A stretch of 64,000 bases of DNA from Brenneria rubrifaciens (GTDB lineage: Bacteria > Pseudomonadota > Gammaproteobacteria > Enterobacterales > Enterobacteriaceae): assembly GCF_005484945.1 (NCBI RefSeq), contig NZ_CP034035.1, forward strand, positions 2,108,001 to 2,172,000. The letters run 5' to 3'. Under the pieces are notes generated by a model. The model did not search any database and was not told the origin of the DNA. It was given only the letters and a program-made list of their open reading frames with translations. Of the stretch, positions 29,260-49,204 are shown piece after piece (the stretch's first letter is position 1; every line of letters begins with the position of its first letter). A program made the position numbers and the translations under genes.

Positions 29260-29287
29260 GAGTCGAGTGTTCCGGCTCTTTTTTTTT
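29260..29287 (+). terminator. Terminator of asnS
   Basis: GAGTCG pairs with CGGCTC (one wobble) around a 7-base loop and is followed by nine T residues. Confidence 0.8.
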
Positions 29288-29319
29288 AATTCTAGAGTTG
29301 CCTCACAAAGTTCCGCGAT

Positions 29320-29513
29320 ATTTACATTTTGTAATACATATTTTCTATTAGTTACTTGATTGCGAAGTTAGTAGCACATTCGGGGTAGATTAACTAGCGA
29401 GCGAATGGAAAACTGCGTTCAGACACAGGACGACACCAAACTTTCAGGAATAGTTCCGTAAGGAATTTTTTATGGCAGTGGCAGGTGTCTACAAAACACC
29501 AATGAGGGTAATA
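29320..29513 (+). promoter_or_regulatory. ompF control region: OmpR-type sites, promoter and 5' UTR
   Basis: The block at 29321-29345 (TTTACATTTTGTAATACATA and onward) resembles the E. coli ompF OmpR F-box region. The GTAGCAC and GAATGGAAAA blocks and the transcript segments ACACCAAACTTTCA, AATAGTTCCGTAA and GGCAGTGGCAGGTGTC also match E. coli in order and spacing. The sequence around the ribosome site (GAGGGTAATAATGATG) is the part paired by the small RNA MicF in E. coli. OmpR and MicF control is therefore inferred by comparison. Confidence 0.65.
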
Positions 29514-30590
29514 ATGATGAAACGCAATGTTCTTGCAGTGGTAATCCCAGTTCTGTTAGCTGCTGGCGCGGCAAACGCAGCAGAAGTCTACAACAAAGAC
29601 GGCAATAAGCTGGATATTTATGGCCGTATGGAAGGCCGTCATTTCTTCTCTGAAGCCGATGACGACAATGGCGATGGGACTCGTGCTCGTCTGGGTATCA
29701 GAGGCGAAACTCAGATTAATAGTGAGCTGACTGGCTATGGTCGTTTCGAATCTGAATTCAGCGCCAATAGCTCTGAAAGCAATAACGTCAAAACTCGTTT
29801 TGCCTTCGCTGGTCTTAAATTTGCCGATTTTGGTTCATTGGATTACGGTCGTAACCAGGGTATCGGTTATGAAGGTATTTCCTACACCGACGTTCTGCCG
29901 GCTTTTGGCGGCGATCATAGCTATACCGACACCTTGACCGGTCGTAAAAGCGGCTTGCTGACTTACCGCAACAACGGTTTCTTTGGTCTGGTAGACGGCT
30001 TGAATTTTGGTTTGCAGGCTATCAGTAAAGATAGCGACGACACGAGCGCTGGCCGTTCTGCTACGGATAGAAAAGCTAACGGCGACGGCTGGGGTACCTC
30101 TCTGAGCTATGACTCCGACATGGGTCTGGGCTTTATTGGTTCATATGCCACAGTAAAACGCACTACTGGTCAGAACCTTACTGCTGACGGTCGCGGCAAG
30201 AAAGCTGAAACCTGGGCTACCGGCGTAAAATATGACGCTAACAACCTTTATCTGGCCGCGACTTACGGCGAATTCCGTAATCTGGCCCTAGACGGGGGTC
30301 TGCCGCTGGACAAAACTGAAATCTTTGAAGCTGTCGCTCAATATACTTTTGATTTCGGCTTAACGCCTTCTCTGGCGTACGTTCAGGGTAAAGGTAAGCA
30401 AGACAACAGCGGCATAGACGAATACGTGAACAAATATGTTAGCGTTGCCGCGTACTACGATTTCAACAAGAACTTCCAGACTTACGCCGAATACAAAATT
30501 AACCTGCTTGACAGTGATAATGCATATGTTGTGAGTGGCGATACTCATGATGATGACGTTGTTGCAGTTGGTGTGAAATATCAGTTCTAA
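29514..30590 (+). CDS. ompF: OmpF-type general porin
   Basis: The 358-aa precursor has a signal peptide ending ANA just before AEVYNKDGNKLDIYG, then a 16-stranded trimeric porin barrel closing with the C-terminal VGVKYQF (terminal Phe). Small hydrophilic solutes and many antibiotics enter through such pores. I start at 29514 (MMKRN), as in E. coli, downstream of GAGGGTAATA; the ORF from 29472 lies in the leader. In loop 3 the usual PEFGG is PAFGG, so the constriction glutamate is lost. The asnS-ompF-aspC neighbourhood is that of E. coli ompF. Confidence 0.9.
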   Translation: MMKRNVLAVVIPVLLAAGAANAAEVYNKDGNKLDIYGRMEGRHFFSEADDDNGDGTRARLGIRGETQINSELTGYGRFESEFSANSSESNNVKTRFAFAGLKFADFGSLDYGRNQGIGYEGISYTDVLPAFGGDHSYTDTLTGRKSGLLTYRNNGFFGLVDGLNFGLQAISKDSDDTSAGRSATDRKANGDGWGTSLSYDSDMGLGFIGSYATVKRTTGQNLTADGRGKKAETWATGVKYDANNLYLAATYGEFRNLALDGGLPLDKTEIFEAVAQYTFDFGLTPSLAYVQGKGKQDNSGIDEYVNKYVSVAAYYDFNKNFQTYAEYKINLLDSDNAYVVSGDTHDDDVVAVGVKYQF

Positions 30591-30632
30591 TCTGATAGAG
30601 CATTATGTAACGGTTTAACCGTTTATCGTTCC

Positions 30633-30662
30633 AAAAAGACAGAGCTTCGGTTCTGTCTTTTT
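30633..30662 (+). terminator. Terminator of ompF
   Basis: AAAAAGACAGAGC pairs with GTTCTGTCTTTTT (one wobble) across a short loop, with T residues at the 3' end. Confidence 0.9.
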
Positions 30663-30835
30663 GTTGGTGCATTTTATGCCTAAATCTCCATAATCTCTTT
30701 TTAACCAGACTATTATTTTGTTTCCCCTTGTCCCTTTATTATTTCCCCTTCTTTTTGATTCAATGGTTGGCAAAGCCTTTTACTGGCGGTAATCTGAGAT
30801 TTCTTGCTTAACCTCTGTCATGGAACACCCTATCA

Positions 30836-32026
30836 ATGTTTGAAAATATCTCCGCCGCACCCGCCGATCCTATTCTTGGGCTGATCGATCTTTTCCGCGC
30901 TGATGATCGTCCGGGCAAAATCAACTTAGGAATCGGTGTTTATAAAGATGAAACAGGCAAAACACCGGTACTGACCAGCGTTAAAAAAGCAGAACAGTTT
31001 CTGTTAGAAAACGAGACGACAAAAAACTATTTGGGCATTGATGGTCTACCCGCTTTTGCCCACTGCACACAGGAATTGCTGTTTGGCAAAGAAAACAGCA
31101 TCATCACCCATAAACGCGCACGTACGGCGCAAACGCCGGGCGGTACTGGCGGTCTGCGTGTCGCTGCCGACTTCATTGCTAACCAGACGTCAGCAAAACG
31201 CATCTGGATCAGCACCCCTACCTGGCCGAACCACAAAAATGTGTTTTCTGCCGTCGGTCTGGAAATCTGCGAGTACCATTACTACGATGCAGCCAACCAT
31301 TCAATGGATTTCGATAGCCTGCTCAGCAGCCTTAACGCGGCTCAGGCAGGCGATGTGGTGCTTTTCCACGGTTGTTGCCATAACCCTACGGGTATCGATC
31401 CTACGGCAGAACAGTGGACCACACTGGCCGAGCTTTCCGTACAAAAAGGTTGGCTGCCGCTGTTTGATTTCGCCTATCAGGGTTTTGCCCGCGGACTGGA
31501 AGAAGACGCGGAAGGTCTACGCATTTTTGCAGCAAAACACCGCGAACTGATCGTTTGCAGTTCTTATTCCAAGAACTTCGGTCTGTATAACGAGCGAGTG
31601 GGCGCCTGCACGGTGGTTGCCGCTGATGCAGGGATCGCCGATAAAGCGTTCAGTCAGGTGAAAGCCGCTATTCGCGCAAACTACTCCAACCCGCCGTCAC
31701 ACGGTGCAACCGTAGTTGCAACCATTCTGGGTAACGACGCGCTGCGCGCTATCTGGGAGCAAGAACTGACGGCAATGCGCGAACGTATTCAACGCATGCG
31801 TCAATTGTTTGTGAATACGCTACAGGAAAAAGGTGCCAAACAGGACTTCTCTTTTATTATTGACCAAAATGGCATGTTCTCATTCAGCGGACTGAATAAA
31901 GATCAGGTACTGCGCCTGCGTGATGAATTTGGCGTTTATGCCGTTAATTCCGGCCGTATCAACGTTGCAGGCATGACGCCTGAAAACATGGCCCCGTTGT
32001 GTGAGGCCATTGTCGCGGTGCTATAA
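30836..32026 (+). CDS. aspC: Aspartate aminotransferase
   Basis: This 396-aa PLP enzyme has the same length as E. coli AspC. It interconverts aspartate and 2-oxoglutarate with oxaloacetate and glutamate. The PLP lysine is in [16 protein letters not shown], and the other cofactor and substrate residues are in [26 protein letters not shown] and the C-terminal SGRINVAGM. The N terminus [20 protein letters not shown] is nearly identical to E. coli. It follows ompF, as in E. coli. Confidence 0.96.
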
Positions 32027-32050
32027 CAAACAACCCGATAGCGGTTAACG

Positions 32051-32079
32051 AAAAAGCCGGCGAATAAGCCGGCTTTTTT
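32051..32079. terminator. Bidirectional terminator between aspC and gloC
   Basis: AAAAAGCCGG pairs with CCGGCTTTTT, giving an A-run/T-run hairpin suited to both convergent genes. Confidence 0.9.
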
Positions 32080-32102
32080 ACGGGTGTCTTTGATAAAAAA
32101 GA

Positions 32103-32747
32103 CTAAATTGTAGGTTCATCACGCACAAAAGGATTGGTTTTCCTCTCCTGGCCCAACGTCGACATAGGCCCATGTCCGGGAATAAAAGTGACATCGTCAC
32201 CCAGAGGAAACAGTTTATTTTTGATCGAGGAGATTAATGCCTGATGATCGCCCTGCGGAAAGTCGGTACGCCCCACGCCACCGTTAAAAATCACGTCGCC
32301 AACCTGGGCCAGCCGTGAAACCTCATCAAAAAAGACGATATGACCGGGCGTATGACCAGGGCAGTGGAATACGGCCAACGCCAGCTTACCCACATTGACC
32401 GTATCCCCTTCTTGTAACCAGCGTGACGGCGTTACCGGTTTGCATTCACCCAGACCAAACATATGGCTCTGTGCCGATAATCCTTCCAACCAGAAAGCAT
32501 CTTTAATGTGGGGACCAACAATCGGTACCTGATAGTATTCCGCAAGTTCGGCCGCGGCGCCAACATGGTCTAAATGCCCATGAGTCAGTAATATTTGCGT
32601 TACTTTGATGCCTGCATTCGTCACCGCGCGTTTGATTTTATCCGCATCACCACCGGGATCGACAATGGCGGCATCGTTAGTCGCCTCACACCACAGTAAT
32701 GTACAGTTCTGGCTGAACGCCGTCACAGGAACTATTTGATATTTCAT
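32103..32747 (-). CDS. gloC: Hydroxyacylglutathione hydrolase GloC (YcbL)
   Basis: The 214-aa metallo-beta-lactamase-fold protein (E. coli YcbL 215 aa) is a type II glyoxalase that hydrolyses S-lactoylglutathione. The metal site [11 protein letters not shown] near residue 53 and later [25 protein letters not shown] and [10 protein letters not shown] supply the usual His and Asp ligands. It is much shorter than GloB because it lacks the C-terminal helical domain, typical of the GloC branch. It follows mepK and converges on aspC. Confidence 0.93.
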
Positions 32748-32872
32748 ACCGCTCCATTTTGAGTCAACCTGACAGATTTAGCCGCCGTAAAAATCCGCAA
32801 TGAAGCGGTGTCAGACTTAGCCGTAACCGGCAGGGTAAACGACCTTAAGCCAATCCATCGTAATCAGAAACG

Positions 32873-33421
32873 CTACCAAGTGCGAACAGGGCCGGTATCG
32901 ATATGAACAAAATTACTACGAGGATAGTAACCAACGCCACCAGCCCGCATCTTTAGTGCCGCTTTTCGCAGATTAGCAAGTTGAACCCCGTTGATATGAA
33001 AGTCCATCGCTTGCCCTTTGGTGTGATAACTTTGCTTGGCAACGCCAGTATGATGCGCCCGGAGCGCGTTATTGGTGTTGATTGACCGATATCCAGAAAT
33101 TAGCTGCACTGGTTTATTCGTTTCCAGCATCACCTGCAAACGGTAAAGCTGATCAAAAAGTAGCGGATCGATTGCTTTGACTTTATTTGCGCGGTAGTCA
33201 CGGAAGAAATGGTTCAAACGGGACAACTCTTCTTTATTGTAGCGTCTGCCATCGAAAAACTCTGTTTTAAGATGTTCGCCCGTATTAAGGTTATCAAGCG
33301 TTAAAATACGTGGACGCGGGGTCGATAACATGGCGAACGCCTGACCGGGAAGCAGAGTCATCCCTAATGCAACCCCACCCAGCGCAAGCCATTTGCGTCG
33401 ATGATTGTCAATGTGTTCCAT
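32873..33421 (-). CDS. mepK: Peptidoglycan L,D-endopeptidase MepK (YcbK)
   Basis: The 182-aa protein begins with a twin-arginine signal (RRKWLALGGVALGM, cleavage after AFA). The mature DUF882/M15-type zinc peptidase domain has LISGYRSINTN, SYHTKGQAMDFHI and NFVHIDTGP, holding the likely zinc ligands. E. coli MepK cleaves 3-3 (mDAP-mDAP) cross-links of peptidoglycan. It lies directly downstream of ldtD, the enzyme that makes 3-3 cross-links. Length matches E. coli. Confidence 0.93.
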   Translation of the reverse strand: MEHIDNHRRKWLALGGVALGMTLLPGQAFAMLSTPRPRILTLDNLNTGEHLKTEFFDGRRYNKEELSRLNHFFRDYRANKVKAIDPLLFDQLYRLQVMLETNKPVQLISGYRSINTNNALRAHHTGVAKQSYHTKGQAMDFHINGVQLANLRKAALKMRAGGVGYYPRSNFVHIDTGPVRTW

Positions 33422-33599
33422 AGCGCGAATTATCCTGGAAAAAACGATGTCAATGGGAGTACATAAAATGCACCGTTTTGAACCTTAACCGCCTATGAAA
33501 AGCGAGTCAACCTGCTTTATTCAGGGTTTGAAAGGGATCGCAACGATCCCCTGGAGGAAAGTCTGTATCTATTTCGCTAAATCGCGCTATTTTCAGTAA

Positions 33600-35357
33600 T
33601 TACAGTAATAATAATCCGGCTTTTGACAGTATGTGCGTACCCGAACTCGCCGTGTCATCATAATTGTAAATATCTGTTCTGAACTGCGGTTTACCATCCT
33701 CTGCGACCCACGCGGTTAAATAATACAGGCTGACCGGAATTCGGTGTTTCATCGGTACATAGGTGGTATTGCCCTGCTCAAGCGTTGCGGAAATACGTGC
33801 ATTATTCCATCCCGCATCGTGTAGCAACATGCCAGCCAGTTCAGATGCCTTGTTGACGCGTACGCAGCCCGAACTCAGCGCCCGGACATCACGCTGAAAC
33901 AGATCATGACTCGGCGTGTCGTGCAGATAGATGGCTTCCGAATTCGGCATGTTAAACTTATAGCGACCTAGCGAGTTGTTAGCGCCTGGCGCCTGGCGCA
34001 GTCGATAAGGAAAACGCGCCGGCGAAACCATGGACCAGTCAATCATCGTCGGATCAATCACTTCTGAATCCTGACTCCAGCCGGACAGCACCGTATAACC
34101 ATGACGCTGCAAGTAGCCAGGGTCTTGAATAACCTTCGGAATAATATCCTGACGCGTCAGCTTAGTGGGTACATTCCACGGCGGATTGACCACCACATTA
34201 TTAAGCGAACTGCTCATCAATGGCGTTTTACGTTTAGGCTGCCCGACAATCACCCGCGATGACAGTCGCTCCGCGCCATCCTGATAGTAAATCAGCGAGT
34301 AATTGGGAATATTTACCAAAATGCCAGTGTTGACATTATCCGGCAGCAAACGCAGTCGCTGGATATTCAGCGCCAGCAACGCTGCCCGCATCTGTGGCGA
34401 AACGTTCAGCCAGTCACGGGTTCGTTTTCCGATCACGCCGTCATCCGCCAGCCCCTGCCACCGTTGGAAACGCTTGACCGCTTCAACCAGTTCACCGCCA
34501 TAGCGGTTTTCAGAATTCACCTCGGCGCTGTCGCCGATGCTCGCCATTGGCGCTTGTGTTGTTTGTTGCGTGACGGATGCTCCCGCAGTTGTCTGTTCAT
34601 TGAACAGCGTAATATTCTCTGTAGTCGTGAGCATGCCAGTCCGTTGCAAAATTTCGCGCAGCTCCGTCAGTTCCCGGCTTTGTTGTCCCGGACGTAACGT
34701 TTCAGACAGATTTAATGCCGGCCAGGGACGCGTATCCACCAACATGCTTTTCAACGCATCGTGCATCTTGGCGTATTGTGAATGCCTGGGCGCCAGCGAG
34801 TCGACATACGCAGCGCTGCTCCCCGATGCCACCGACTGTTGCCATTGGCTGACCGCATCTGGCGCTGGCGATTGCAGACGATAAGGCACACTGCTGTATA
34901 ACCAGTTATTACCGTTGCGCCCAACATCGGAAACAAAATGCAAATAACCGAGCATGGCATCGGATAATATGATGTCGCGAGCAAAACCGGTGATTTGCGG
35001 ATCGGTCAGCCAGGAAACCCAGGTAGTAAACTGCGGTTGTATCCCAGAGATGGCTAATTCGGCCAGTTGCTGCTGAAATTGCTGAACAGCACGCTGGTCG
35101 GCCCACATGGGTTGCATAGAACGGCTGGCATATAATAACGACAGTTCGGAGAGATATTTCGGCGTCGCCGATTTAGGTAATGCCGCCAATAATGACGCTC
35201 TGCTTTGTTCTGTCGAAACCGTCCCGGCACTTTGCAGAACGCCAGATAAAGCCGAGGAAGCTGCTGCCAGCACCGAAAAAGAAAGAGACAGGCTACATAC
35301 CCAGATACAACCGGCGCTCCACAGTAGCCTCTGCTTTTTTCGTTTATATAACAACAC
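33600..35357 (-). CDS. ldtD: L,D-transpeptidase LdtD (YcbB)
   Basis: The 585-aa periplasmic enzyme (E. coli 615 aa) forms 3-3 cross-links in peptidoglycan. A basic N terminus and hydrophobic segment form the signal peptide. A peptidoglycan-binding PGBD1 domain (VKRFQRWQGLADDGVIGKRT) precedes the YkuD domain, with HDTPSHDLF and the nucleophile in SSGCVRV near residue 498. I prefer the GTG start at 35357, which has AGGGGA upstream and gives MLLYKRKK, over the ATG at 35378, which lacks a ribosome site. The region between residues 210 and 260 is shorter than in E. coli. In E. coli mukB is directly upstream; here 4.5 kb of foreign DNA intervenes. Confidence 0.92.
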   Translation of the reverse strand: MLLYKRKKQRLLWSAGCIWVCSLSLSFSVLAAASSALSGVLQSAGTVSTEQSRASLLAALPKSATPKYLSELSLLYASRSMQPMWADQRAVQQFQQQLAELAISGIQPQFTTWVSWLTDPQITGFARDIILSDAMLGYLHFVSDVGRNGNNWLYSSVPYRLQSPAPDAVSQWQQSVASGSSAAYVDSLAPRHSQYAKMHDALKSMLVDTRPWPALNLSETLRPGQQSRELTELREILQRTGMLTTTENITLFNEQTTAGASVTQQTTQAPMASIGDSAEVNSENRYGGELVEAVKRFQRWQGLADDGVIGKRTRDWLNVSPQMRAALLALNIQRLRLLPDNVNTGILVNIPNYSLIYYQDGAERLSSRVIVGQPKRKTPLMSSSLNNVVVNPPWNVPTKLTRQDIIPKVIQDPGYLQRHGYTVLSGWSQDSEVIDPTMIDWSMVSPARFPYRLRQAPGANNSLGRYKFNMPNSEAIYLHDTPSHDLFQRDVRALSSGCVRVNKASELAGMLLHDAGWNNARISATLEQGNTTYVPMKHRIPVSLYYLTAWVAEDGKPQFRTDIYNYDDTASSGTHILSKAGLLLL

Positions 35358-35587
35358 CCATTTATCCCCTGTACACATTAACGACCATGCCTTCCACTAC
35401 GAACGGTTTTAAGAGTGGAAATAAAACAACCAAATTCATTATGGCAAAAAAAAATTATGTTTTAAGTGACGTTATTCTGTGCGGAGAATAGATAACTTTG
35501 CCAAATAGTATATCACTTGAAGGGAATTCAGCCCAAATTGTGCGATCTGATTAATCGCCAAATTTCCCCAATCACCAACCGGACTAA

Positions 35588-36080
35588 ATTACGCCGATCA
35601 TCGCATTTATCCCGGATGAAGAACGGCGCCTGATGAGAACAAAGGCCCAGCAACCCGTGATAAAAACTCTTTCCCGACGACTGATAGCCATGCTGATGTT
35701 GCATCAGGAAATGACCGTTACCTACGTTGCCAGAAAACTTTGCGCCGCGGGTTACTCCGTTCGAAATGGATAAATTGGTTACTTTACAGAGCATTAAATG
35801 ACTAAAAGGCTTCAGGCCCGGACGCGCTCCCCGCCGGCCCGTTGATGATATCCTGCAGACTTTGCCGCTTCTGATACAACGGTCACCCCAGACTTTGGCT
35901 GGTTGCGCTTTCGATGGAATACGGAACTTCTGCCGCTCATCGTCAATCGACTTTTTGGCGCCACGCTTCATTTCGCTACCCGCACCACTCCCTGAAGCAG
36001 GCAGGTATAGTTTGGCGCATAGCCGCGCCGACACTGAAAATAAAAGACCCGCATAAAGAGGAAAACGAGCCGCTACGCTG
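35588..36080 (+). pseudogene. Decayed IS630-family transposase, left remnant
   Basis: The first frame reads ITPIIAFIPDEERRLM, then SRRLIAMLMLHQEMTVTYVA, which matches the IS630 N terminus; it stops at 35771. The match resumes in another frame with WINW at 35767-35778. It resumes again near 36004 with AGIVWRIAAPTLKIKDPHKE, a hallmark IS630 segment. The intervening 200 bp are scrambled by stops and deletions. The C-terminal catalytic part is missing. The element is dead and old. Confidence 0.8.
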
Positions 36081-36211
36081 GGGATTTAGCTAAAGAACAG
36101 CGTGATAATCCAAAGTATTATAAGGATGAAGCGATGTTAGTATGCCATGACGAACCGATCAGTGCGCCAGAAGCATTACGCAGGTCGTAGAGAATTGCAT
36201 CATTTACAAAA
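36004..36211 (+). repeat. Left arm of a diverged 0.2-kb inverted repeat
   Basis: This stretch aligns by eye over its full length, at roughly 70% identity, with the reverse complement of 39633-39845. Shared words include TTTGGCG, GCCGCG, GATGAAG and TCGTAGAGAAT. It starts inside the IS630 remnant and continues into a non-transposase sequence that is the same in both copies. Confidence 0.75.
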
Positions 36212-36393
36212 CGTCACGTTGCGATCCGAGATGACTTTCAGCAATGCAGGCGCATAAATCGCCTGTCCCGGATGATCATAACGCCATCGTTGCAAGGGCA
36301 CCCGAAAGCCCCACTCATTGTTATTTCCTCTGCATCTTGCGGGAATAACGACTCTTCATCTTCTGCTCCCTTACATTATATACTGCAAAAAAC

Positions 36394-36428
36394 AATAAAC
36401 CCCCGCCATCTCGTTACGGGGGTTTATT
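36394..36428 (-). terminator. ilv-type attenuator terminator
   Basis: A perfect 12-bp stem AATAAACCCCCG / CGGGGGTTTATT with an 11-base loop is followed on the minus strand by GTTTTTTGC. It lies 17 bp after the stop of an IlvL-like leader peptide, the arrangement of the ilvGMEDA attenuator. It may now act as terminator for the upstream dehydrogenase-hydrolase operon. Confidence 0.75.
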
Positions 36429-36445
36429 GAATTCGGGCCTGATTT

Positions 36446-36502
36446 CTAAGCCATTAATCGTCCAGGCGCTACGCCCCACGGTGGGATAATAATCACCACC
36501 AT
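36446..36502 (-). CDS. Orphan IlvL-like leader peptide
   Basis: On the minus strand the peptide MVVIIIPPWGVAPGRLMA resembles the C-terminal half of the ilvGMEDA leader peptide IlvL of E. coli (which ends VVVIIIPPCGAALGRGKA). The nucleotides GTGGTGATTATTATCCCACC are the same as I recall for E. coli ilvL. Upstream the frame continues with RVNS but meets a stop before a good start codon, so the 5' half is broken or altered. No ilvG follows. No ilv structural gene is in the window. Confidence 0.6.
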   Translation of the reverse strand: MVVIIIPPWGVAPGRLMA

Positions 36503-36605
36503 GCTATTCACTCGGAAGAATGCTTTGATAAAGAGTATTCATCAATCGGCCCCAAACCAGCGTCCGATGCCTCGCCTCCTGCCCACGGACCTGCACCGGC
36601 GCCGA

Positions 36606-37421
36606 TCAGTTCTGCTTCAACTCAATGCCAATCGGCCCGAGACTCTCCCCCATATCCACGGGCAGCAGCACGCCGGTGATCGCACTGGCGGCATCGCTGG
36701 CCAGAAACAGCACCGCGTCGGCGACCTGGCGCTGCTCGACCGGCTCGCCCAGCGTCACCTGCTGCCGGAACCAGGCATGGAACTCCGGCGTCTCCACGAA
36801 CGCGCGGCTGAGCGCCGTCTTCACCAGGGTCGGGCACACGCCATTGACGCGGATCCGCTGCGGACCGTACTCGAGCGCCGCGACGCGGGTAGCCTGCGCG
36901 CTGGCCGCCTTGGATATGTCGTAGACGGCCTGGTTGATGTGCGGGCGGACGGCCGCCATGGAGAGGACGTTGACGATCACCCCGCCGGACTCCTGCTCGA
37001 GCATGCGCCGGATCGCCGCGCGCATCCCGTTCCAGGTGCCCTTGGTGTTGACGGCCAGGGCGCGCTCGAGTTCCTCATCGCCGTACTCGTGCATGCGTTT
37101 CTGCGGAGCCACGATGCCCGCGTTATTCACCCAGATGTCCAGTTTCCCCCGCGCGGTCAGCGCACGCTCAGCCAGGGCCGCGACAGCCTCGGGGGAGGTC
37201 ACGTCGGTCTTCAGGTACTCTGCCGAGTGGCCCTCGGACGCGAGTAGGTCGACGACATCCCTATCCGGGCTCTCGTCGTAGCCGCCGGACCGGGGGCTCG
37301 GCTGTAGGTCGCCTATCACCACGTGCGCACCTGCACGTCCGAGGGCGAGGGCGATGGCATGTCCGATGCCGGTCGCGCCGCCGGTCACCACCGCAGTCTT
37401 TCCTGCCAGAAGCTCTGTCAT
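36606..37421 (-). CDS. Short-chain dehydrogenase/reductase (third gene of the acquired operon)
   Basis: The 271-aa classical SDR has the cofactor loop TGGATGIG near residue 14, an acidic residue after beta 2 (GDLQPS, favouring NAD), NNAGI, a Ser in NVLSMAA and the catalytic YDISK. After beta 2 it has an insert PRSGGYDESPDRD not usual in the family and shared with the dehydrogenase at 38409-39215. GGAG lies upstream of the ATG. Codons almost always end in G or C, unlike the flanking genes, so it is probably transferred. It lies 59 bp downstream of the hydrolase in the same direction. The substrate is unknown. Confidence 0.88.
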   Translation of the reverse strand: MTELLAGKTAVVTGGATGIGHAIALALGRAGAHVVIGDLQPSPRSGGYDESPDRDVVDLLASEGHSAEYLKTDVTSPEAVAALAERALTARGKLDIWVNNAGIVAPQKRMHEYGDEELERALAVNTKGTWNGMRAAIRRMLEQESGGVIVNVLSMAAVRPHINQAVYDISKAASAQATRVAALEYGPQRIRVNGVCPTLVKTALSRAFVETPEFHAWFRQQVTLGEPVEQRQVADAVLFLASDAASAITGVLLPVDMGESLGPIGIELKQN

Positions 37422-37480
37422 CTGCTTTACTCCGCAATTGATGTCGAATTGATGTCGATAAGCGGCCTCGCCGCTGCCAT

Positions 37481-38386
37481 TCAGCCCGCGCCCGTCAGGT
37501 GGCGGCTAAACCAGTCGACGGCGGCGCTGGAGGCTTGCACGAATTCCTCGTCGTAGGGCGCGAAATGCCCTCCTTGCAGAAGCAGCAACTGCTTCGGCTC
37601 GAGCGCTTGCGCATAGGTTTCCAGCGCCAGTTCCGCCGACGCCAGATCGTCCCGCCGCCCGATGATCATCAGCAGCGGCACCGGCGCGATCCGGCCGACG
37701 TAGCCGCCCGGTTCGTAGGCCGCCGCCAGTTCCAGCGAGCGCAACGTGACCTCGTTGTGGAACGATGGCGCGTCGGCGGCATTGCGCACCGTCCAGTCAT
37801 GCGCTTCCGGGGTGGACAGCACCGCCGGATGCGTCGGGTCCTGGTGCGTGACCGGGAGCATCACCGGCGCTTCGCCGCGCATGCGTGCGGCGCGGTCGGC
37901 GGCGAAGCCCTTGGCGCTCATTTCCTGCATCACTGGGGTGAGGTTGAGCCGGGACTGCCGGCTGCCGCTGGTGAAGGGCACCTGCGATACGACGCACCCG
38001 ACCCGGCTGTCGGTGGCCCCCAGCACCAGCACATGCCCACCGGCCAGGCTCGATCCCCAGATACCTACACGCTCGGGGTCGACCTCCGGCAGGCCCTGGG
38101 CAAAGGTGATCGCCTCGCGCCAGTCGTTGATTTGCTGGGTCGGATCGACCTCCTGGCGCACCACGCCGTCGCTGTGGCCGAAATTGCGATGGTCGTAGAC
38201 CAGCACCCCCAGCCCGGCCTCGGCGAAGGCCTCGGCGAACGGCGCCAGGGACAGCTCCACGACCCCGGAAAAACCGTGGGCCATGACTACCACCGGCGCG
38301 GGGCCGGTGACGCCGCGGGCGTGATAATGGCGGCCGCGCAGCACGATACCGTCGGCAGTGGCGAATTCAATCGGTTCAAAGTTCAT
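37481..38386 (-). CDS. Alpha/beta hydrolase (middle gene of the acquired operon)
   Basis: The 301-aa alpha/beta-hydrolase-fold protein has the oxyanion strand VMAHGFSG near residue 38, VYDHRNFGHSDG, the nucleophile elbow GIWGSSLAGGH (second Ser as nucleophile), the acid in IIGRRDDLAS and the catalytic His in LLQGGHFAPY. It has no signal peptide, so it acts in the cytoplasm. The family includes dienelactone-hydrolase-like and ester-cleaving enzymes, and the true substrate cannot be told. I start at 38386, after CGGAG; the ORF further upstream overlaps the preceding dehydrogenase. Composition is very G+C-rich. The gap to the upstream dehydrogenase is 22 bp. Confidence 0.87.
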   Translation of the reverse strand: MNFEPIEFATADGIVLRGRHYHARGVTGPAPVVVMAHGFSGVVELSLAPFAEAFAEAGLGVLVYDHRNFGHSDGVVRQEVDPTQQINDWREAITFAQGLPEVDPERVGIWGSSLAGGHVLVLGATDSRVGCVVSQVPFTSGSRQSRLNLTPVMQEMSAKGFAADRAARMRGEAPVMLPVTHQDPTHPAVLSTPEAHDWTVRNAADAPSFHNEVTLRSLELAAAYEPGGYVGRIAPVPLLMIIGRRDDLASAELALETYAQALEPKQLLLLQGGHFAPYDEEFVQASSAAVDWFSRHLTGAG

Positions 38387-38408
38387 AATCGGCTCCGAGC
38401 AAGTTTGA

Positions 38409-39215
38409 TCACAGGGCAAGCTTCCCGCCATCGACCGCCAGACCCGCGCCATTGATGAAGCCAGCGGCATCGGAAGCGAGGAAGGCCACCGCGGCGGCAA
38501 CGTCGTCGACGGTTCCGAAGCGTGGGAACGTATTGATCTGGCGCAGCGCGGCGACCGTCTTCTCGTCCGAAAGCGGCTCGCGGGACATCGCGGTCTGGAT
38601 GATGCCGGGAAGGATAGCGTTCACGCGGATGTGCTGCGGCCCGAAGTCGGCCGCCACCTGGCGGGTAAGCGCGAGCACCGCGCCTTTGGAGGCGCAATAG
38701 GCCGGTTCGAGCGGAAGCCCGGCCTGCGCCGCGACCGAGGCGATGTTGATTACCTGCCCGCGCGCGCCATTCGCGCGCGGCGGCTGCGCCATCATCTGGG
38801 CGACCGCGTACTTGCAGCCGAGGAACACGCCCTTGGCGTTCACCGCCATGGTGAGGTCCCAGTCGGCCTCGCTCTGATCGACCACCGTCTCCAGCGACGT
38901 GACGACCCCGGCGTTGTTGACCATGATGTCCAGTCTGCCGTAAGCCTCGACCGCGACCGCGACCGCCGCCTGCACCTGCGCAGCCTTGGACACGTCGGTC
39001 TGCTGGAACTGCGCCGCGCCGTGTCGACGGCGGATGAGCTCGTGCGTATCGAACTCCGGCTCGACGTCATAGCCGCCCGGCTTGGGCCCGGCGCGCATGT
39101 CGGCGACCAGTACCGAAGCGCCCTGCGCCGCCAGTTCCAGCGCGATCGCCCGGCCCATGCCGGACCCGCCGCCAGTGACGACGGCGGTCATTCCTTGCAA
39201 TTGTAATGAAGACAC
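38409..39215 (-). CDS. Short-chain dehydrogenase/reductase (first gene of the acquired operon)
   Basis: The 268-aa classical SDR has TGGGSGMG near residue 15, an acidic residue after beta 2 (VADMRAG), NNAGV, Ser in INIASVAA, the catalytic YCASK, and a C-terminal FINGAGLAVDGG. It carries the insert KPGGYDVEPEFDTHE after beta 2, paralleling the other dehydrogenase of this operon. The start is GTG at 39215, with GGAGG upstream. Codon use is extremely G+C-biased. It begins the operon. The acquired DNA appears to begin near 39330. No regulator gene accompanies it. Confidence 0.88.
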   Translation of the reverse strand: MSSLQLQGMTAVVTGGGSGMGRAIALELAAQGASVLVADMRAGPKPGGYDVEPEFDTHELIRRRHGAAQFQQTDVSKAAQVQAAVAVAVEAYGRLDIMVNNAGVVTSLETVVDQSEADWDLTMAVNAKGVFLGCKYAVAQMMAQPPRANGARGQVINIASVAAQAGLPLEPAYCASKGAVLALTRQVAADFGPQHIRVNAILPGIIQTAMSREPLSDEKTVAALRQINTFPRFGTVDDVAAAVAFLASDAAGFINGAGLAVDGGKLAL

Positions 39216-39632
39216 GTTCTACCTCCACATCGATGATAGTGAGATTCGTCCCGGCACGCGCGCCACCGTCAAAGCGGCGTAGTCTCACCGTCGCTCACGA
39301 TCTTCGCATTGCCGGCCCATACAATCTTCAAATCCGGAGTCTAAAGAATAGCTAACAGGGCTATCACAACCAGGCAGGACATGACAATATTTCTTTATGT
39401 GTTTTTCTGTAACACAGAATAATTATTATCAAAAAGTATAATGTAATTATGAGGGTAAAAGGGACGCGAGTTATTTTCGCCGTATTCGAAACTTGAGAAT
39501 TTTGGCAACTATTAGCACGATAATAGTGACAACAACCACAATCGCTCTATCAGATTTCGCCACAATGACTACACCGGCAAAAACAGTCGGTGAACGTCTA
39601 ATTGATCGTCAGTCAGCATTCAACTTTGCAGC
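39216..39632. other. Upstream region of the acquired operon, mixed composition
   Basis: The right-hand edge of the G+C-rich DNA falls near 39330, and composition then drops to A+T-rich. Bases 39493-39702 contain a 69-codon ORF from TTG with a hydrophobic N-terminal stretch; its last part enters the inverted repeat, and I do not count it as a gene. A promoter for the operon must lie here, but none is clear. Confidence 0.45.
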
Positions 39633-39845
39633 TTTTGTGAACAATGTCATTCTCTACGATCCGCATCATGTTTCTGGCTCGCCGATCAGTTCGACTTGGT
39701 AAAGCCAACGCCACTTCATCTTGATAAAACACTGTATTATCAATCTATTATTTAGAAAAATCCCGAGCGACAGCGGCGTATTTTTCTTATAATGCGGGCC
39801 TTTTATTTTCCGTGTCGCCGCGGCTCTTCGCCAAACAATACTACC
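39633..39845 (-). repeat. Right arm of a diverged 0.2-kb inverted repeat
   Basis: This is the reverse-complement partner of 36004-36211. In both arms the IS630 sequence breaks off after the segment coding YYKDEA or FYQDEV and continues into the same non-IS630 sequence. Confidence 0.75.
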
Positions 39846-39881
39846 CTGCTTCCGGTAACGATGCAGGGTAGTATCCACCAT
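39690..39881 (-). pseudogene. Decayed IS630-family transposase, right remnant
   Basis: On the minus strand the frame reads SIVWRRAAATRKIKGPHYKK and, in another frame, VFYQDEV, both typical of IS630 transposases in the middle of the catalytic region. Neither the N-terminal nor the C-terminal parts are here. It ends four bases before the mukB stop. Confidence 0.7.
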
Positions 39882-39884
39882 ACG

Positions 39885-42800
39885 CTAAGAAGCCCGTTCC
39901 TGAATTTCCGGGGGTTCATCTGCAAAACCGCGCAAACCCACCACATGAACGTGCTCATGATTCTGATGCACCTTACGCACCAGCTTATAGGTTGTCCCTT
40001 TTTCAGGGCTGATATTTTCCGGCGCGGCGATGATCAACTGCATTTCCAGACGATCGCAAAGTTCAAATAGGGTCGCGATTGATTTGGCGTCCAGACGGGC
40101 CGCTTCATCCAGAAACAGTAAACGGCACGGTGAGATATCTTTGCCGCGTAGCCGCTTGGACTCCTCTTCCCAGCTCTGAACCACCATCACCAGAATCGAC
40201 ATCCCGGTACCGATTGCTTCCCCGGTCGACAGGGCACCGCTCTCGGCGCGCAACCAACCATCGGCTCCGCGGTTGACCTCGACTTCCATTTCCAGATAGT
40301 TACGGTAATCCAGCAGTTCCTCACCTATGGTTTGCGGAGCCCGCTGTCCCATATCGATTTCCGGGTTCAGACGCTGGTACAGCTTCGCCAACGCTTCCGA
40401 GAAGGTCAGACGATTACTATTAAACAGATCCTGATGCATCTCCTGCTGTTCAGACAACACATTCAGCAGGGTTGTATGCGTTTCACGCACGTTGACGTTC
40501 AGCCGCACGCTTTTTACCTGACCAAACGCCACGGATTGCAGCCCCTGATTGAGCATTCGAATTCGGTTCTGTTCACGCTGGATCGTCTTGCGGATAATGT
40601 TGGCCACGCTGCGCGAACTGATTGCCAGCGTTTGTTCGCGGGCCGTCAACTCTTCCGTCAGACGATTAAGCTCAATTTCCATCTGTTCAATGGCTTCGAC
40701 CGGGTCATCGGTGCGGATGATATCCTGCCGGATACGCTCGCGCAGGTGCTGATATACCGCGATGTAAAACTGAATTTTACGCTCAGGCCGCTTAGGATCT
40801 TCCGAAAGGCGCAATACATCGCGCAAATGCTCGTTATCCGCCACCGCCAGGCGCAGAGCCCCCAGCGCTTTATCCGACATTGAACGCAGTTCGTCGCCAT
40901 CCATATAGGCCAGTTCACGACGATGCAAACGGCGCTCCACGCCGTTATCCTTAACCAGACGCATCACCGCACACCAGCTTGCCTTCGCCGTTACCACCTG
41001 CTCGCGCATCTGATGATAATCACGTTCCAGCTTACGCAGTTTCTTTTGCAGGCCATCCATCTCCGCTTCACAAAACGTGAGCTGTTTTTCCAACTGGTTA
41101 CGGCGCGCACGATTCGCGCTCAACGCGGCATGCAACTCGTCACGGCGCTGACGGGCCCGCGACTCGGCATCGGCATCGGCCCGCACGCCAATGTCCTGAA
41201 GCTCCTGAGTCAGCTCTTTCAGCATGTCACGTTTGGCGTCATAAGAACTCTTCAGTGATGCCTGGAGCTGGCTATATTGCGTAAGCTGCGATTGATGCTG
41301 ACGCAGTTGCTCACGGGCTTTGGTCCGCTCCGCTTCCGCCTGTTCCAAACGCTGACGCAGCTTGTCGTTCAGGTCAGCGTTTTCACCCAGCATCCCGGCG
41401 GAATCGGTATAGGTGAAGTGCGCCCGGCGCTGTACGACCTCCGTCAGGGAAAATGCCTGTTGCCTGGCGTGACGCTGCGCGTTTTGCGCCTGCGTATAAT
41501 CTTTTTTGAGCTGCTCATGCTGCTGAGGGTCGCTTTGCAGCACTGAAACCATCGGCTCCAGTTTTGCCAGCGTAGCACCGTGTTGCTGAAGAAAACCTAC
41601 CGACGCTTCCGCTTCGTCCAGCTCCGCGCGAATTTCTTCAACCCGATCGTACAGTGTGTCATCACATAGCAGGCTAACGCGAGGAATCAGTCTGTTCAGC
41701 ATTGCGCTGAGCGCTTTTGCCTGCTCGAACTGCTGGCGCTGCTGCTGATTTTCGCCATCAAAGTTGTCGATAGCCCGCTCAAGCTCGCTACGGCGAGAAT
41801 TTAAGCGACGAATATCCGTCTCAGGATCGTCGTCAAACGCGACGGCCAGATGGGTGCCAATAAAACGGCTGAACGACTGATGCAGACGTTGAGTTTTTTG
41901 CACGTCAAAAGAGAGCGTCGCATACTGTTCCGCCAACGCCTCACGTTCATCACGCAGACTTTCCAGCCGCATTTCTCGCGCCGCGCGGCCAAACAGCGGA
42001 ACCGCAGGAAAACGTGAGTAACGCCACTGGCGCTCCGCGACTTTCACCACCACCGCCCGTTCCAGCTCTTCCACCGCAAAAACGCTGTCGTCGAACGATT
42101 GCGGGTCGCCTTCGATCAGATACAAATCTTCCGGGCAATCTTCCAGCCCCGCCAGTTGTTCGCGAACCAAAGACAGATCCGCAACCACGATCCCGTGACG
42201 CGAAGGACCGTAAAGCGCGGAGAAATAGGGCGCATCGTCCAACGTGACATCGTCGTAGATCTCCGACAGCAGTACGCCGCCAAATCGTTCCGCCAATGCA
42301 TTTAAGCGCGGATCTTCAGCCCCACCTGGCTGGCTAAGGCGTTCAATCTGCGCTTCGATATGCCGTTTGCGGGCGGCGATCTCATCGCGCTCCACCGTGG
42401 TTTCCCGCTCACGCTCCAGCAGTTGCTGCATGAATTCCGTCACCTGACGGCTGTCGTCAAATGTTTCGCCGCTTTGATCGCTCAGTTGGGTCAGCATTTC
42501 CTGCGCCGCCAGCCAAATCGGTGCACGCGCCGTCAGTTGCTGAATACGTTGCTGGATCTGCTCAAGCTCCTGACGCAACGCCAAGCGGCGCTCGCCTGCC
42601 TCAGCCACCAGCGCCGACAGGGTTTCAATCTTCGCGTCCAACTCCTGCTGAAGCGAATCCAGCGCTTCCGGCTCACACGCCTGACCGCTGCGCTTGTTAA
42701 AATCCTGATGCAACCGCTCAGCGTCTTGCTGTTCGCCCAGGCGCTGCTCCAGTTCCGATAAACGCACGCGCAGCGGTTGCACCCGCTCAGCCTGATAGCG

Positions 42801-44324
42801 CTGTGACGAGCTATCGCGCAACAGGTCACGCGCGACCTGCCACGCCTCACTGCGACTTACGCTGCCGGCGATCCGGCAAACCAGCTCATAAGCCTGCTCA
42901 AACTGGCTGTGAGCAGCATCGGCAACGCTCAGCTTTTGCTCAAGCATCAACAGAATTTCTGTGGCTTCCTGATCTTTCGCCTGATAACTGTCCAGCCATT
43001 CATCGGCGTTGTCCGGGGTCAGATCCGGTATTTGGCAGAGCGTACGGGCGCGCTCCAGCGCCTGCTGCGCCTGCTGGTACTGAATGGCGCGGGTTTGCTG
43101 CACATCCAGCGCCTGCTGGTAATCGGCCAACTGACTTTTCAGTTCATCCACTTCCAACTCGGCGGCGTCGGCACGGGCTTCATTTTCAGCCTGTTGCTCA
43201 CGCGCTTCCTCAACCACCTCATTCTGTTCTTCGAGGCGGTAGCTCAACTCTTCCAGATCCGCGTTGTAGCGCGCGATCTTTTCCTGCTGGCGCATCGCGG
43301 TCTGCACCAGATTCAGGTGATCGCTGGCTGCCTGATAATCCGTTTCCAGATCGTCTTCCGCCCCGCTTTGCTCTTCGAGTTCACGCGCCATTTCAACGTG
43401 GCGATATTGCTCGGCGGAGAGTTGCTTGCGGCTGTTGAACAGATCGCGGCGCAGCGCCAGCGCGCCGTCCAGGTGAATACGGCGCTCATTGGCATGACGC
43501 ATATAGTCCGCCGCCACATAAGAGGTCGCCTCAGAAATCAAATGCTTGAACAGGTCACGATCGGACTGGGTAACGCGAATGGCTTCCAGCGTCATGCGGT
43601 TTTCACGTAACGCCGCCTCCATATCCTGAAACGCTTTGCGCACGCCGCTGTTTTCCGGCAGCAAATAATCACGCAATGAACGTGTAATGGCGCTGGAAAT
43701 ACCGCCGTACAACGAAGCTTCAATCAGGCGGTAAAACTTGCTGCGATCGGCGGCGGAGCGCAGACGACGAGGCACCACGCCCAGATCAAACATCAGGGAG
43801 TGATAATCCGTGATGGAGTTGAACTGTTTAAACTGAACGCCTTCCATCTCTTCAACGCGCTCTTTCAGTTCCTGTAGAGAAAGCACCCGCGCCTGACGAT
43901 CGCCCACCGTCTGGGTCAGCAACTGCGTCGGCTGCATCGCGGTCGGCAATCCTTGAATGACAAACGGCTTGATATCGACCTTGCGATCGCGGCCGGCAAC
44001 CTGCTGCAAGCGCACGCCCACCAGCACGCGCTGATGACGGGAGTTGACGATATCCAACGTGGAGTAACACACGCCAGCGCGCAGTTTACCGTGCAGACCC
44101 TTATCACGGGAACCGCTGGTGGCGCCGGCTTCAGTGGTGTTTCTGAAATGCAACAGTGTCAGATCGGGGATCAGCGCCGTAATAAACGCCGCCATTGTGG
44201 TGGATTTTCCGGCGCCGTTGCCTCCCGACAGCGTGGTAACCAGTTCATCGAGATCAAATGTGCGAGCGAAAAAACCATTCCAGTTAACCAGTGTCAGCGA
44301 GCGAAATTTACCGCGTTCAATCAT
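39885..44324 (-). CDS. mukB: Chromosome condensin subunit MukB
   Basis: The 1479-aa SMC-like protein has an N-terminal ATPase half with Walker [11 protein letters not shown] at residues 34-43, two very long coiled-coil arms separated by a hinge around residues 650-800, and a C-terminal half with the signature [13 protein letters not shown] and Walker [12 protein letters not shown]. It dimerises and, with MukE and MukF, organises and segregates the chromosome and binds topoisomerase IV. Its ATG overlaps the mukE stop (ATGA). Length fits E. coli (1486 aa). In E. coli ldtD follows directly; here the acquired segment does. Confidence 0.97.
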
Positions 44325-45049
44325 TCCTGTTCATCCTCAACACTTTCTGGCGGGGTATCGTCTGGGCGATCGTTCTCGTCACTCTCATCTTTCAGTGACA
44401 GATTACCGTCGACAGGCATCGCTTCACCATCGCGGATCATCCGCAACTGCGCCTCGCGCGCATCATCGCCGCTGCGCACATCGGCGCCGAAGCGGAAAAC
44501 CGACTCGGTGATCCGAAACTTGCTGTTATCGCTGCCCATAAAATAGATCATTCCCAGCCGCCGCAGGCGGTTAAGGGAGGTTCTGACTTTTTCCTGTAAT
44601 TTCTGGCGATCCAGATCGGAGCCTGTCGAGCGCTGGTTAACCAGCTTCAGCAATTTGCTTTCATCCGCCAGGCCGAGCAGCTCTTCATACAGTTCCTGCT
44701 GGCTGAAAATGCCTTCGTGCGCCAGCCGCTCCGGGCTGAGGTATAAATAGCAAAGAATTTTCCCCACCATCATATCCAGCTCGGACAAGACTGAACGGGC
44801 GATCAGCGTGGTGGAACGCGGACGCAGATAGAAGAACCCTTCCGGCGCACGAATCAGCTCGACATTATACCGGCTGTAGAACGATTCCAGTTCTTCCTGA
44901 AAATCCATCAGGAAAGCGTGATTTTCCAGCTCTTCAATGCCGATATGACGGCCTGCCCGCAATTGACTGTCCAGCGCGGGAAATAGCATATTCGACAGCG
45001 CGGTAACCAGTCTGACTGGCATGATATGTTCAATATTTGTCGATGACAT
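44321..45049 (-). CDS. mukE: Condensin subunit MukE
   Basis: The 242-aa protein (E. coli 234 aa) has two winged-helix domains and an acidic C-terminal tail, and bridges MukF to MukB. Conserved segments are [48 protein letters not shown] and [17 protein letters not shown] start at 45049 ([14 protein letters not shown]), which overlaps the mukF end by 20 bp; the 9 extra residues of the longer ORF are not supported by alignment. Confidence 0.95.
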
Positions 45050-46355
45050 GGGCCTGTACCTTGGCTCCGTAATCATTGATTACCTGCCACAGCGCGGGCA
45101 ATCCGGTGAAATCTGCTTCGGCCACTCCCAGACGCACCGCCTGGTCGACCACGATTCTGGCAACATCAAAGTGCCGGGAACGAGGATACTGTGCAAGATA
45201 CTCGCGCATTACATCGCTTAAATTAAGCGGTATTTGCTGCGCTTTGTATTTCTGTAACGACTGCTCCACCAACGCGATCAACTGTTCGCGCATTTCGCTG
45301 AACGCTTCATATTCCAGATCTGGCGGCAGTTCGCCCGTGACTTCTTCGCTGCGTAACGTCAACTCTTCATCACGCATATCCAGCAATCGATCGGCATTGG
45401 CAAACGTAAGCGCCCAGGGGTAGTCAAAATAACTCTGCACCGACTGGCGCAAACGTTGCGCAAACACCCGGTTTTTATCCATATCAATGGCGGTACGGAT
45501 AAATTTATGAACATGCCGATCATAGCCAATCCATAAGTCGATGGTTTGCTGGCCCCAACTGACAATACGGTCAAGTTTGCTTTGTAAATCAAAGACCAGT
45601 TTATCGACAAACTCCAGGTTGTGCGGGTTGTTGAGAATAGTATCCTGAATACTCAGCAGGCTGGCCTGTAATTTGTCGCCGGCGGCTTCCAGCGTATCCT
45701 GCAATTCGCGCAGGGTGCTCGAGGTTTCCGTCAACAGTTGTTCACAACTGCTGATAGCCGCGCGCCAGTCCTGATTCAACAGCGCGGCAATATCCTCTTT
45801 TACCCCTTGCTGTTGCTCATCCATCACCCGTTGGGATAAATCGATACTGTCAAAAATTTCTGCGACCGAGTATTTCAGCGGCGCAAAGACATTACGATGC
45901 CAGTGAAACTCATCGCCGCCCTCTTCCGCCGCCTCCGCCGCCCGCTTAAGTTCCTGAGCCACAATCGAGAGCTGCATAGAGAGGCGCAGCGCGGAAAATT
46001 CACGCTGACGAATGTAGTAGTCGGTGATACCGATTCCCAACGGGGTCAGGCGGTAAATGGCGTTGCCCTCCGCCTGTTCACTGACAAAACGATTGAGCAA
46101 CCGCTGGCGAACCAGATCATTGATGGCATTATTGGCACGGACGGTAATGGTTTCGTCCGTTTGATCGAACCCCTGACTGACATGCCGAAAGGCATCGACC
46201 AGTTCGCCTTCACTCATTTCTCCATCCATACGTTCGCCATTGAGTGTGGCTATCGCCAGTAAAAAAGCCAGGCGCTCAGTGGGAAGGGAAAGGGAAAAAT
46301 CATTTTTTCGTGCCCAGGCGACCAGTTCGGGTACAGTCTGGGAAAAATCACTCAT
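45030..46355 (-). CDS. mukF: Kleisin subunit MukF
   Basis: The 441-aa kleisin (E. coli 440 aa) has an N-terminal winged-helix dimer domain ([20 protein letters not shown]), a central helical region and a C-terminal winged helix that contacts the MukB head. It overlaps cmoM by four bases and mukE by 20, so cmoM-mukF-mukE-mukB form one tightly coupled operon. Confidence 0.95.
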
Positions 46356-49200: not shown

Positions 49201-49204
49201 CACT

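Follow-up and report, generated by a model that had tools for sequence, protein, structure and literature searches.

A stretch of 64,000 nucleotides of the Brenneria rubrifaciens genome (contig NZ_CP034035.1, positions 2,108,001 to 2,172,000; hereafter, the window) carries, between ldtD and mukB, three genes coding for two short-chain dehydrogenases (SDR1 and SDR2) and an alpha/beta hydrolase. This trio was very probably acquired horizontally, from outside, and is embedded in a decayed fragment of the ilvG-ilvL-yifB region flanked by inverted remnants of insertion sequences (IS). We regard the insert as a genuine foreign metabolic cassette with an unusually legible two-step history. The explanation that fits the observations best as a whole, and which we consider probable, is that a foreign three-gene catabolic cassette was captured in an ilv leader, later relocated and serves the breakdown of an alcohol or ketone. 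It would be a readable case of a foreign operon placed in the leader of an amino-acid operon, between its promoter and terminator, and found relocated together with this control region. In addition, three enzymes that have been little characterised are here tied together as a set that recurs elsewhere and whose class of substrates can be tested.

The insert between ldtD and mukB

Shown directly are the anatomy of the insert, its foreign composition, its absence from congeners, the kinship of each gene to sets found on plasmids, and intact catalytic residues. The distance between the ldtD start and the mukB stop is 288-378 bp in all eight congeners and 4506 bp in B. rubrifaciens, with the mukB 3′ end being present in all nine genus genomes. 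These distances bear out an insertion at mukB-ldtD, proposed earlier in a sequence-only reading of the window. However, the same reading viewed the trio as a self-contained cassette placed directly between the two genes, and this view is unsupported or at least incomplete: the foreign stretch (35489-39871) is longer than the trio and also comprises IS remnants as well as a piece of the ilv locus that has been displaced. From left to right it consists of an IS remnant (plus strand), an ilvG piece, the ilvG start with attenuator and ilvL, the trio, an ilvL-yifB intergenic segment and an inverted IS remnant. The features, in window coordinates, are as follows.

38409-39215, minus strand: SDR2, classical NAD-type short-chain dehydrogenase of 268 aa, first gene, GTG start at 39215 (PF13561, 198.6 bits, cut-off 27)
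37481-38386, minus strand: alpha/beta hydrolase of 301 aa, second gene, ATG start at 38386 (PF00561, 48.7 bits, cut-off 25.8)
36606-37421, minus strand: SDR1, classical NAD-type short-chain dehydrogenase of 271 aa, third gene, ATG start at 37421 (PF13561, 186.7 bits, cut-off 27)
36219-36286, minus strand: internal ilvG fragment of 68 nt, 82-90% identical to ilvG of the own genome and congeners
36299-36547, minus strand: degraded ilvG start, ilvG-ilvL spacer, attenuator and ilvL leader, 82-88% identical to the native ilv locus of seven genus genomes
36385-36440, minus strand: ilv attenuator hairpin downstream of the cassette, likely terminator (minimum free energy −24.3 kcal/mol)
36538-36550, no strand assigned: left junction, ilv-leader 13-mer whose native equivalent also has an imperfect counterpart at the right junction (39328-39339)
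39327-39534, minus strand: ilvL-yifB (comM) intergenic segment on the upstream side of the cassette, assigned by alignment scores against native loci
39360-39387, minus strand: ilv-promoter-like TTGTCA-N16-GATAGC, about 145 nt upstream of SDR2
35489-36211, plus strand: left IS630-type remnant, 5′ part of a decayed transposase gene, with copies in congeners and an inverted match to the right remnant
39526-39871, minus strand: right IS630-type remnant without its outer end and in the opposite orientation to the left one, recognized by its match to the left arm and to a copy in congener G006
33600-35378, minus strand: ldtD, native left flank (NF007891 L,D-transpeptidase, 973.8 bits)
39885-44324, minus strand: mukB, native right flank (NF003422 MukB, 2538 bits)

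On the minus strand the gene order is SDR2-hydrolase-SDR1, with spacers of 22 and 59 nt. All three open reading frames (ORFs) are intact, and GGAG-type ribosome sites precede all three starts; the co-directional arrangement, the gaps and the good ribosome sites had all been described correctly. The G+C content is 0.656-0.698 over 36500-39249 (500-bp windows), compared to 0.41-0.60 elsewhere in 28000-46000, boundary windows included. As a reference for individual genes we used the other ORFs of the window that are at least 150 aa long and largely free of overlap (42 in number), one of which (35528-36034) lies inside the IS remnant. The G+C content of the trio is 0.68 versus 0.523 ± 0.033 in the reference, and G+C at third codon positions (GC3) is 0.860, 0.847 and 0.854 versus 0.583 ± 0.062 (maximum 0.70; z 4.3-4.5). 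By contrast, an index resembling the codon adaptation index (CAI) is not lower in the trio (0.69-0.75) than in the host (0.69 ± 0.04), so that the trio is set apart by base composition and not by this codon measure. As a marker of foreignness CAI was uninformative, failing to separate the trio from host genes. Thus, the earlier statement that both composition and codon use stand apart holds for G+C and GC3 but not for the CAI-like index. The trio is absent from the eight congeners, which, together with the composition, upholds its proposed horizontal origin.

Hydrolase matches at E ≤ 0.001 were obtained in six of the nine genus genomes, none exceeding 37% identity outside the cassette itself. 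One of them, in the B. rubrifaciens genome (L028, G000:C1:1857346-1858146), is a second hydrolase relative (30%) with one in-frame TAG; an SDR gene (L001) lies about 0.3 kb away. In congener G001 a relative with 31% identity has an open reading frame.

The displaced ilv region and the IS remnants

Sequences to the left and right of the cassette run continuously in seven aligned native loci of the genus (own, G001, G002, G003, G005, G006 and G008). Three lines of evidence assign this piece to ilv: matches in congeners, ilvG and yifB in L049 (the own native locus), and the corresponding stretch of E. coli, which carries the ilvL annotation and lies between ilvG and yifB. Since the native locus, with ilvG and yifB, is intact elsewhere in the genome, the copy at ldtD-mukB is an extra one. 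The ilv stretch has matches at E ≤ 0.001 in 267 of 392 family genomes; outside the genus the best-scoring match is 75% identical (G113), and shorter ones reach 84%.

The left arm spans the attenuator and the degraded ilvL up to about 36550, while the right arm begins at about 39327. About 1 kb of ilvG has been deleted between the 36219-36286 piece and the next one (relative to L050, 2747 to 3762), and in the ilvL copy beside the cassette the start codon is altered and some 15 nt are missing. The attenuator hairpin has a z of −3.8, with none of 200 shuffles equally low, and is followed by a U-rich tail; it was not called on the minus strand by a generic terminator scan. The counterpart of the promoter-like site, TTGTCA-N16-GATAAC, occurs upstream of ilvL in six of the seven native genus loci scanned, and was found neither in the native locus of G005 (L053) nor in that of E. 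coli. A generic promoter scan did not call the site at 39387-39360. Because the right arm carries the promoter-like site and the left arm the hairpin, the trio lies in the sense direction between an ilv-type promoter and the ilv attenuator, both of which may be in use. The same short native segment has a counterpart at both ends of the cassette, as insertion with target duplication would leave; the match is imperfect and suggestive only.

The left arm shows no clear favourite among the seven native loci, with identities of 82-88% (own 82.0%, G005 88.1%). For the right arm, G001, G002, G003, G005 and G008 give alignment scores of 142-149, whereas the own native locus reaches 83 and G006, which is the nearest congener by mukB identity, reaches 68 (maxima for shuffled sequences, 44-51). 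This makes a simple, recent duplication of the own native locus a less likely source of the ilv piece, whose yifB-side part is nearer to those five congeners than to the own locus or G006. The scores suggest that the piece is either an old duplicate predating a change in the own locus or derives from another species of the genus. The transfer had been taken to be recent, but the flanking ilv copy is degraded and no more than about 70-88% identical to native loci, which makes a recent date doubtful.

The two outermost parts of the insert are related to each other and to IS copies in congeners. Region 35489-36065 is 77.8% identical over 582 nt to a copy in G003, and 35489-35824 is 84% identical over 339 nt to G006. 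On the other side, 39633-39871 is 74.9% identical to the reverse complement of 35976-36211, and 39526-39693 is 68% identical to the 3′ part of the G006 copy. ORFs of these relatives carry helix-turn-helix (HTH_23/HTH_32) and DDE_3 domains, and from this domain pair we take the elements to be of IS630 type. Among the matches listed, there is no further copy in the own genome besides the two remnants. A search with the insert gave 33 matches in congener G007; many of these lie at contig ends and concern the IS portion of the query.

The arrangement resembles IS-flanked composite transposons in that foreign genes lie between two inverted copies of one IS type, which bound the cargo. It differs from them in that both copies are decayed, one is without its outer end and no target duplication is apparent. 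Complete outer ends were not found, and as the right remnant lacks its 5′ part, target duplication cannot be assessed. Nesting of the trio in a decayed ilv fragment, itself flanked by inverted IS remnants, indicates that the cassette has probably moved at least twice.

Related gene sets on plasmids

Close relatives of the trio are rare in the related genomes sampled. At E ≤ 1e−40 the hydrolase was detected in two of 392 family genomes including the own one; the other genome (G288, 46%) has no SDR match at E ≤ 1e−15 within 18 kb. SDR2 was found at E ≤ 1e−60 in one of 369 class genomes (the own) and at E ≤ 1e−52 in two of 398 phylum genomes, own included. These samples were drawn from larger groups and partly overlap, and SDR searches scored six to seven first-look candidates per genome. 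A scan of genome contigs yielded 13 loci, with the hydrolase at no more than 45% identity over its length and one 33-residue piece at 55%.

Among plasmids, records matching at E ≤ 1e−40 number nine for SDR1 and 18 for SDR2, and Rhodococcus, Burkholderia, Paraburkholderia, Haloferax and Salinigranum appear on both lists; in Salinigranum both matches correspond to one single ORF, an SDR1. The hydrolase family is broad, with 3287 plasmid records at E ≤ 1e−5, all below 60% identity, far more than hold SDR2. The top tblastn identities are 49.3% for the hydrolase (among 30 matches listed), 44.7% for SDR1 and 54.5% for SDR2, the last to a Burkholderia multivorans plasmid protein annotated as 'glucose 1-dehydrogenase'. 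A blastn search of plasmids found no place covering 80% of the query.

We compared eight plasmid loci with an SDR1 orthologue (L084-L090 and L099, among 20 loci); two further Rhodococcus records (DK17 and DK180) stand outside this comparison. SDR1 and SDR2 are in tandem in six of the eight (with SDR1 broken in JS3073), and a hydrolase gene is adjacent in five, whereas in the cassette it lies between the two SDR genes. The clusters come from Rhodococcus (RHA1 pRHL2, R. oxybenzonivorans pRB98 and JS3073), B. multivorans p1_2010Ycf503, Paraburkholderia phenoliruptrix pSYMBR3459, Haloferax gibbonsii pHG3 and Salinigranum marinum. Their orthologues are 45-55% (SDR2), 41-42% (SDR1) and, where intact, 47-49% (hydrolase) identical to the cassette proteins. 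Unlike the cassette order, that in Rhodococcus is hydrolase-SDR2-SDR1, with the hydrolase broken in all three loci, and that in Haloferax is hydrolase-SDR1-SDR2. Salinigranum has only hydrolase-SDR1, P. phenoliruptrix only the SDR pair, and in B. multivorans the hydrolase is about 11 kb off. Furthermore, the cassette is chromosomal, lies inside ilv debris and is without monooxygenase, cupin or regulator. The hydrolase pseudogenes are at L084 14055-14946, L089 11056-11946 and L099 7055-7946; both SDRs are open in two of these loci and SDR1 is split in L099.

Phylogenetic analysis was performed with 16 SDRs and no own-genome paralogue, leaving out rows L086_Pphen_c and L090_Sphingop2. The branch parting the SDR1 group from all other rows has support 100/99. 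Four bacterial SDR2 rows join at 81/85, with the haloarchaeal SDR2 outside them. Within the plasmid clusters, SDR1 falls with the second SDR of the tandem, and the two cassette SDRs match different members of the plasmid tandem pair. The alternative in which SDR1 and SDR2 are local duplicates, that is, sisters, was rejected (approximately unbiased test, p-AU 0.0005). Since the tree splits the SDR1 and SDR2 groups and sister pairing is rejected, the SDR pair most likely travelled together as a pair. In a separate earlier tree, which included wrong-frame or partial pieces of own paralogues L003, L005, L006 and L008, own paralogues L001, L002 and L004 fell outside both SDR groups.

The three genes had been proposed to belong to one pathway, and a test set beforehand, whether the same genes occur together elsewhere, gave a positive answer on Rhodococcus, Burkholderia/Paraburkholderia and haloarchaeal plasmids, which supports a shared ancestry of the three as one set. 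Judging from these sequences, the trio represents an old gene set, small and dispersed, recurring on plasmids of distant bacteria and salt-loving archaea. A literature search at the level of records, to which subscription papers were mostly inaccessible, found no description of a tandem-SDR/hydrolase gene set.

Putative function and history of the cassette

Classical SDRs have a Rossmann domain and the motifs TGxxxGxG, NNAG and Ser-Tyr-Lys. Both SDR1 and SDR2 score above the cut-offs of Pfam adh_short_C2 and adh_short, and the Ser/Tyr/Lys residues and an Asp after beta-strand 2 are invariant over 11 aligned SDRs. In SDRs this Asp goes with NAD(H); as both enzymes keep it, oxidation would be the favoured direction. 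An unusual loop of GG(Y/F)(E/D) type is common to SDR1, SDR2 and their relatives. Membership in the mycofactocin-coupled SDRs (TIGR03971) was rejected at 183.4 and 176.4 bits against a curated cut-off of 300. The hydrolase has the fold, GxSxxG nucleophile elbow, Asp and His of the alpha/beta hydrolase superfamily, and its Ser113, Asp246 and His274 are invariant over 10 aligned proteins. Hence the catalytic residues are intact, as stated before. The hydrolase structural model is of middling quality (pLDDT 70.7) and weak in several stretches between residues 138 and 216. Its nearest solved structures are DcsB (a thioesterase), GrgF and 7qjm (Foldseek E 2.5e−20, TM 0.70); as judged from the model, these fold neighbours do not settle whether a C-C or a C-O bond is cleaved.

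The neighbourhoods of orthologues offer additional hints. In the RHA1 and B. multivorans clusters, FMO-like monooxygenase and esterase-type genes are found near the SDR pair. In P. phenoliruptrix, a single gene separates the plasmid-borne SDR pair from a preceding homologue of 3bal, a solved structure named 'acetylacetone-cleaving enzyme' (E 4e−57); the top hit of this cupin, 2o1q (E 9e−72), bears another name. A glyoxalase-like protein (below the family cut-off) is encoded after the SDR pair, and gloB genes and a D-lactate dehydrogenase gene are within about 7 kb. On a plasmid of Sphingopyxis sp. 113P3, which we take to be a polyvinyl alcohol degrader, an SDR1 relative (45%) adjoins Cupin_7, glyoxalase and FAD oxidase genes (L090, 7277-10687); the cupin is 31% identical to that of P. 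phenoliruptrix, and the neighbourhood is possibly a diketone-methylglyoxal-lactate set. No monooxygenase-, cupin- or glyoxalase-type partner is annotated in the Haloferax and Salinigranum stretches. The theme common to these neighbourhoods, to which we commit ourselves, would be conversion of a secondary alcohol to a ketone or diketone, followed by cleavage.

In the Dke1 route, according to PMC7226712, acetylacetone is split into acetate and methylglyoxal, the latter being converted to lactate. The orthologous SDR pair of P. phenoliruptrix stands beside a Dke1 homologue and a glyoxalase-like protein; the cassette differs in having no Dke1, and the cleavage proposed for it is hydrolytic and O2-independent. 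No Dke1-type cupin is encoded among insert ORFs of at least 80 aa, and the P. phenoliruptrix cupin has no match at E ≤ 0.001 in the own genome, in a search run with no positive control.

We infer the order of events, the use of the promoter, the substrate and the direction of the SDR reactions as follows. The cassette would first have landed in the ilvGMEDA leader of a bacterium of the same genus, between the ilv promoter and the ilv attenuator. A piece comprising truncated ilvG, attenuator, cassette and the ilvL/yifB intergenic segment would then have settled in the ldtD-mukB gap, with inverted IS630-type elements, decayed since, on either side. The captured ilv-type promoter would serve as the start of transcription and the captured attenuator hairpin as its end. 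Acting on the two positions, or the two configurations, of a small hydroxyketone or 1,3-diol, the two NAD-dependent SDRs may oxidise two secondary carbinols to give a ketone or beta-diketone. The serine hydrolase might then cleave this product, either at a C-C bond of an activated beta-diketone or as an ester or lactone, into a carboxylic acid and a ketone or alcohol entering central metabolism; hydrolytic cleavage by this enzyme is the most likely last step. For the general scheme, alcohol to ketone and then hydrolysis, we lean towards acceptance, while beta-diketones or 1,3-diols as the particular substrate class are a tentative suggestion. All three enzyme genes have stayed open although the ilv and IS arms have decayed, which suggests selection for the enzymes after arrival.

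The strongest competitor, itself rather unlikely, is a Baeyer-Villiger type route, in which the ketone made by the SDRs is oxidised by a monooxygenase to an ester or lactone for the cassette hydrolase to open; this monooxygenase would have been left behind in the transfer or be supplied elsewhere. In its favour, R. jostii RHA1 and B. multivorans have FMO-like proteins close to the SDR pair (R. oxybenzonivorans has the same protein accession as RHA1), a protein with the same NCBIfam matches is encoded near a 45%-identical hydrolase of Nevskia, and the nearest structures are esterases and thioesterases. However, the cassette itself has no monooxygenase, and the B. multivorans and RHA1 clusters have other esterase-type genes beside theirs. 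The own genome contains one partial match to PF00743 (FMO family; 24 bits, cut-off 22) and none at E ≤ 0.001 to the RHA1 enzyme, the latter result showing little as no positive control genome was included. These two results and the missing cupin match weigh lightly against both partner routes in this host. Thus the ester/lactone route of the sequence-only reading is possible but its monooxygenase is not seen, and we consider the hydrolytic diketone route at least as good.

Modification of quorum signals is improbable. In that case the hydrolase would be an acyl-homoserine lactone (AHL) lactonase similar to UilS and the SDRs would reduce 3-oxo acyl chains. UilS is an AHL lactonase of Serratia marcescens, according to PMC11633161. 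Its family (NF047920), of the same hydrolase superfamily, is the best NCBIfam match of the cassette protein, but 126.1 bits is far below the cut-off of 400 and membership was rejected; besides, the relatives reside on catabolic-type plasmids and in haloarchaea. To our knowledge, AHL signalling is not expected in haloarchaea. Slightly less probable still is polyketide tailoring, with two ketoreductases and a hydrolase that off-loads as a thioesterase or forms lactones in the manner of DcsB or GrgF: both are among the nearest structures by sequence and fold, but identity is only about 25%, and no polyketide synthase or carrier protein is present in the cassette or annotated in the plasmid stretches, whose gene tables are incomplete. 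Finally, the trio occurs in a single genome and has no close orthologue in any collection searched, so that one might think of simple vertical descent with loss from the relatives, of an assembly error or of contamination; all this is very improbable given a compositional z above 4, the short ldtD-mukB gap in all eight congeners, the location on a single 4.03-Mb contig, and flanks grading into decayed genus-type ilv and IS sequence with no abrupt end.

The preferred account of a captured and relocated catabolic cassette has to be weighed against several observations. No orthologue above 55% identity, hence no close donor, was found in plasmid and genome searches, and because the samples are partial and few SDR candidates were scored per genome, some orthologues may have escaped detection. 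SDR1 sits on a long branch, and the hydrolase was not seen in the stretch examined of two of the eight plasmid loci and is distant in a third. The captured −10 (GATAGC) differs from the native one (GATAAC) at one position, the junctions bear only a short, imperfect direct repeat, and composite transposition is not proven since the right IS lacks its outer end. The fold neighbours of the hydrolase (7qjm, DcsB, GrgF and a PETase) are as suggestive of ester/thioester chemistry as of diketone cleavage. Orthologues of the trio are known from sequence, and no assayed function for any of them was found in the parts of the literature read. GC3 is still 0.85 despite the decay of the flanking ilv copy, which speaks against a very old event; decay in an intermediate host, or a donor segment that had already diverged, would reconcile the two.

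A bolder extension, which we offer as speculation and think rather doubtful, is that the set constitutes an undescribed portable, O2-independent route for 1,3-diols and beta-diketones, alternative to Dke1 and exchanged among actinobacteria, Burkholderia-type bacteria and haloarchaea, and that in this lineage it became a working operon by capture between the ilv promoter and the attenuator before the IS-mediated move. If the diketone route holds, it would be a hydrolytic counterpart to acetylacetone dioxygenase with a possible link to polyvinyl-alcohol-type compounds. Elsewhere in the window, about 2 kb (49028-51000) between the genes at 48098-49027 and 51001-51753 contain only short ORFs of at most 129 aa.

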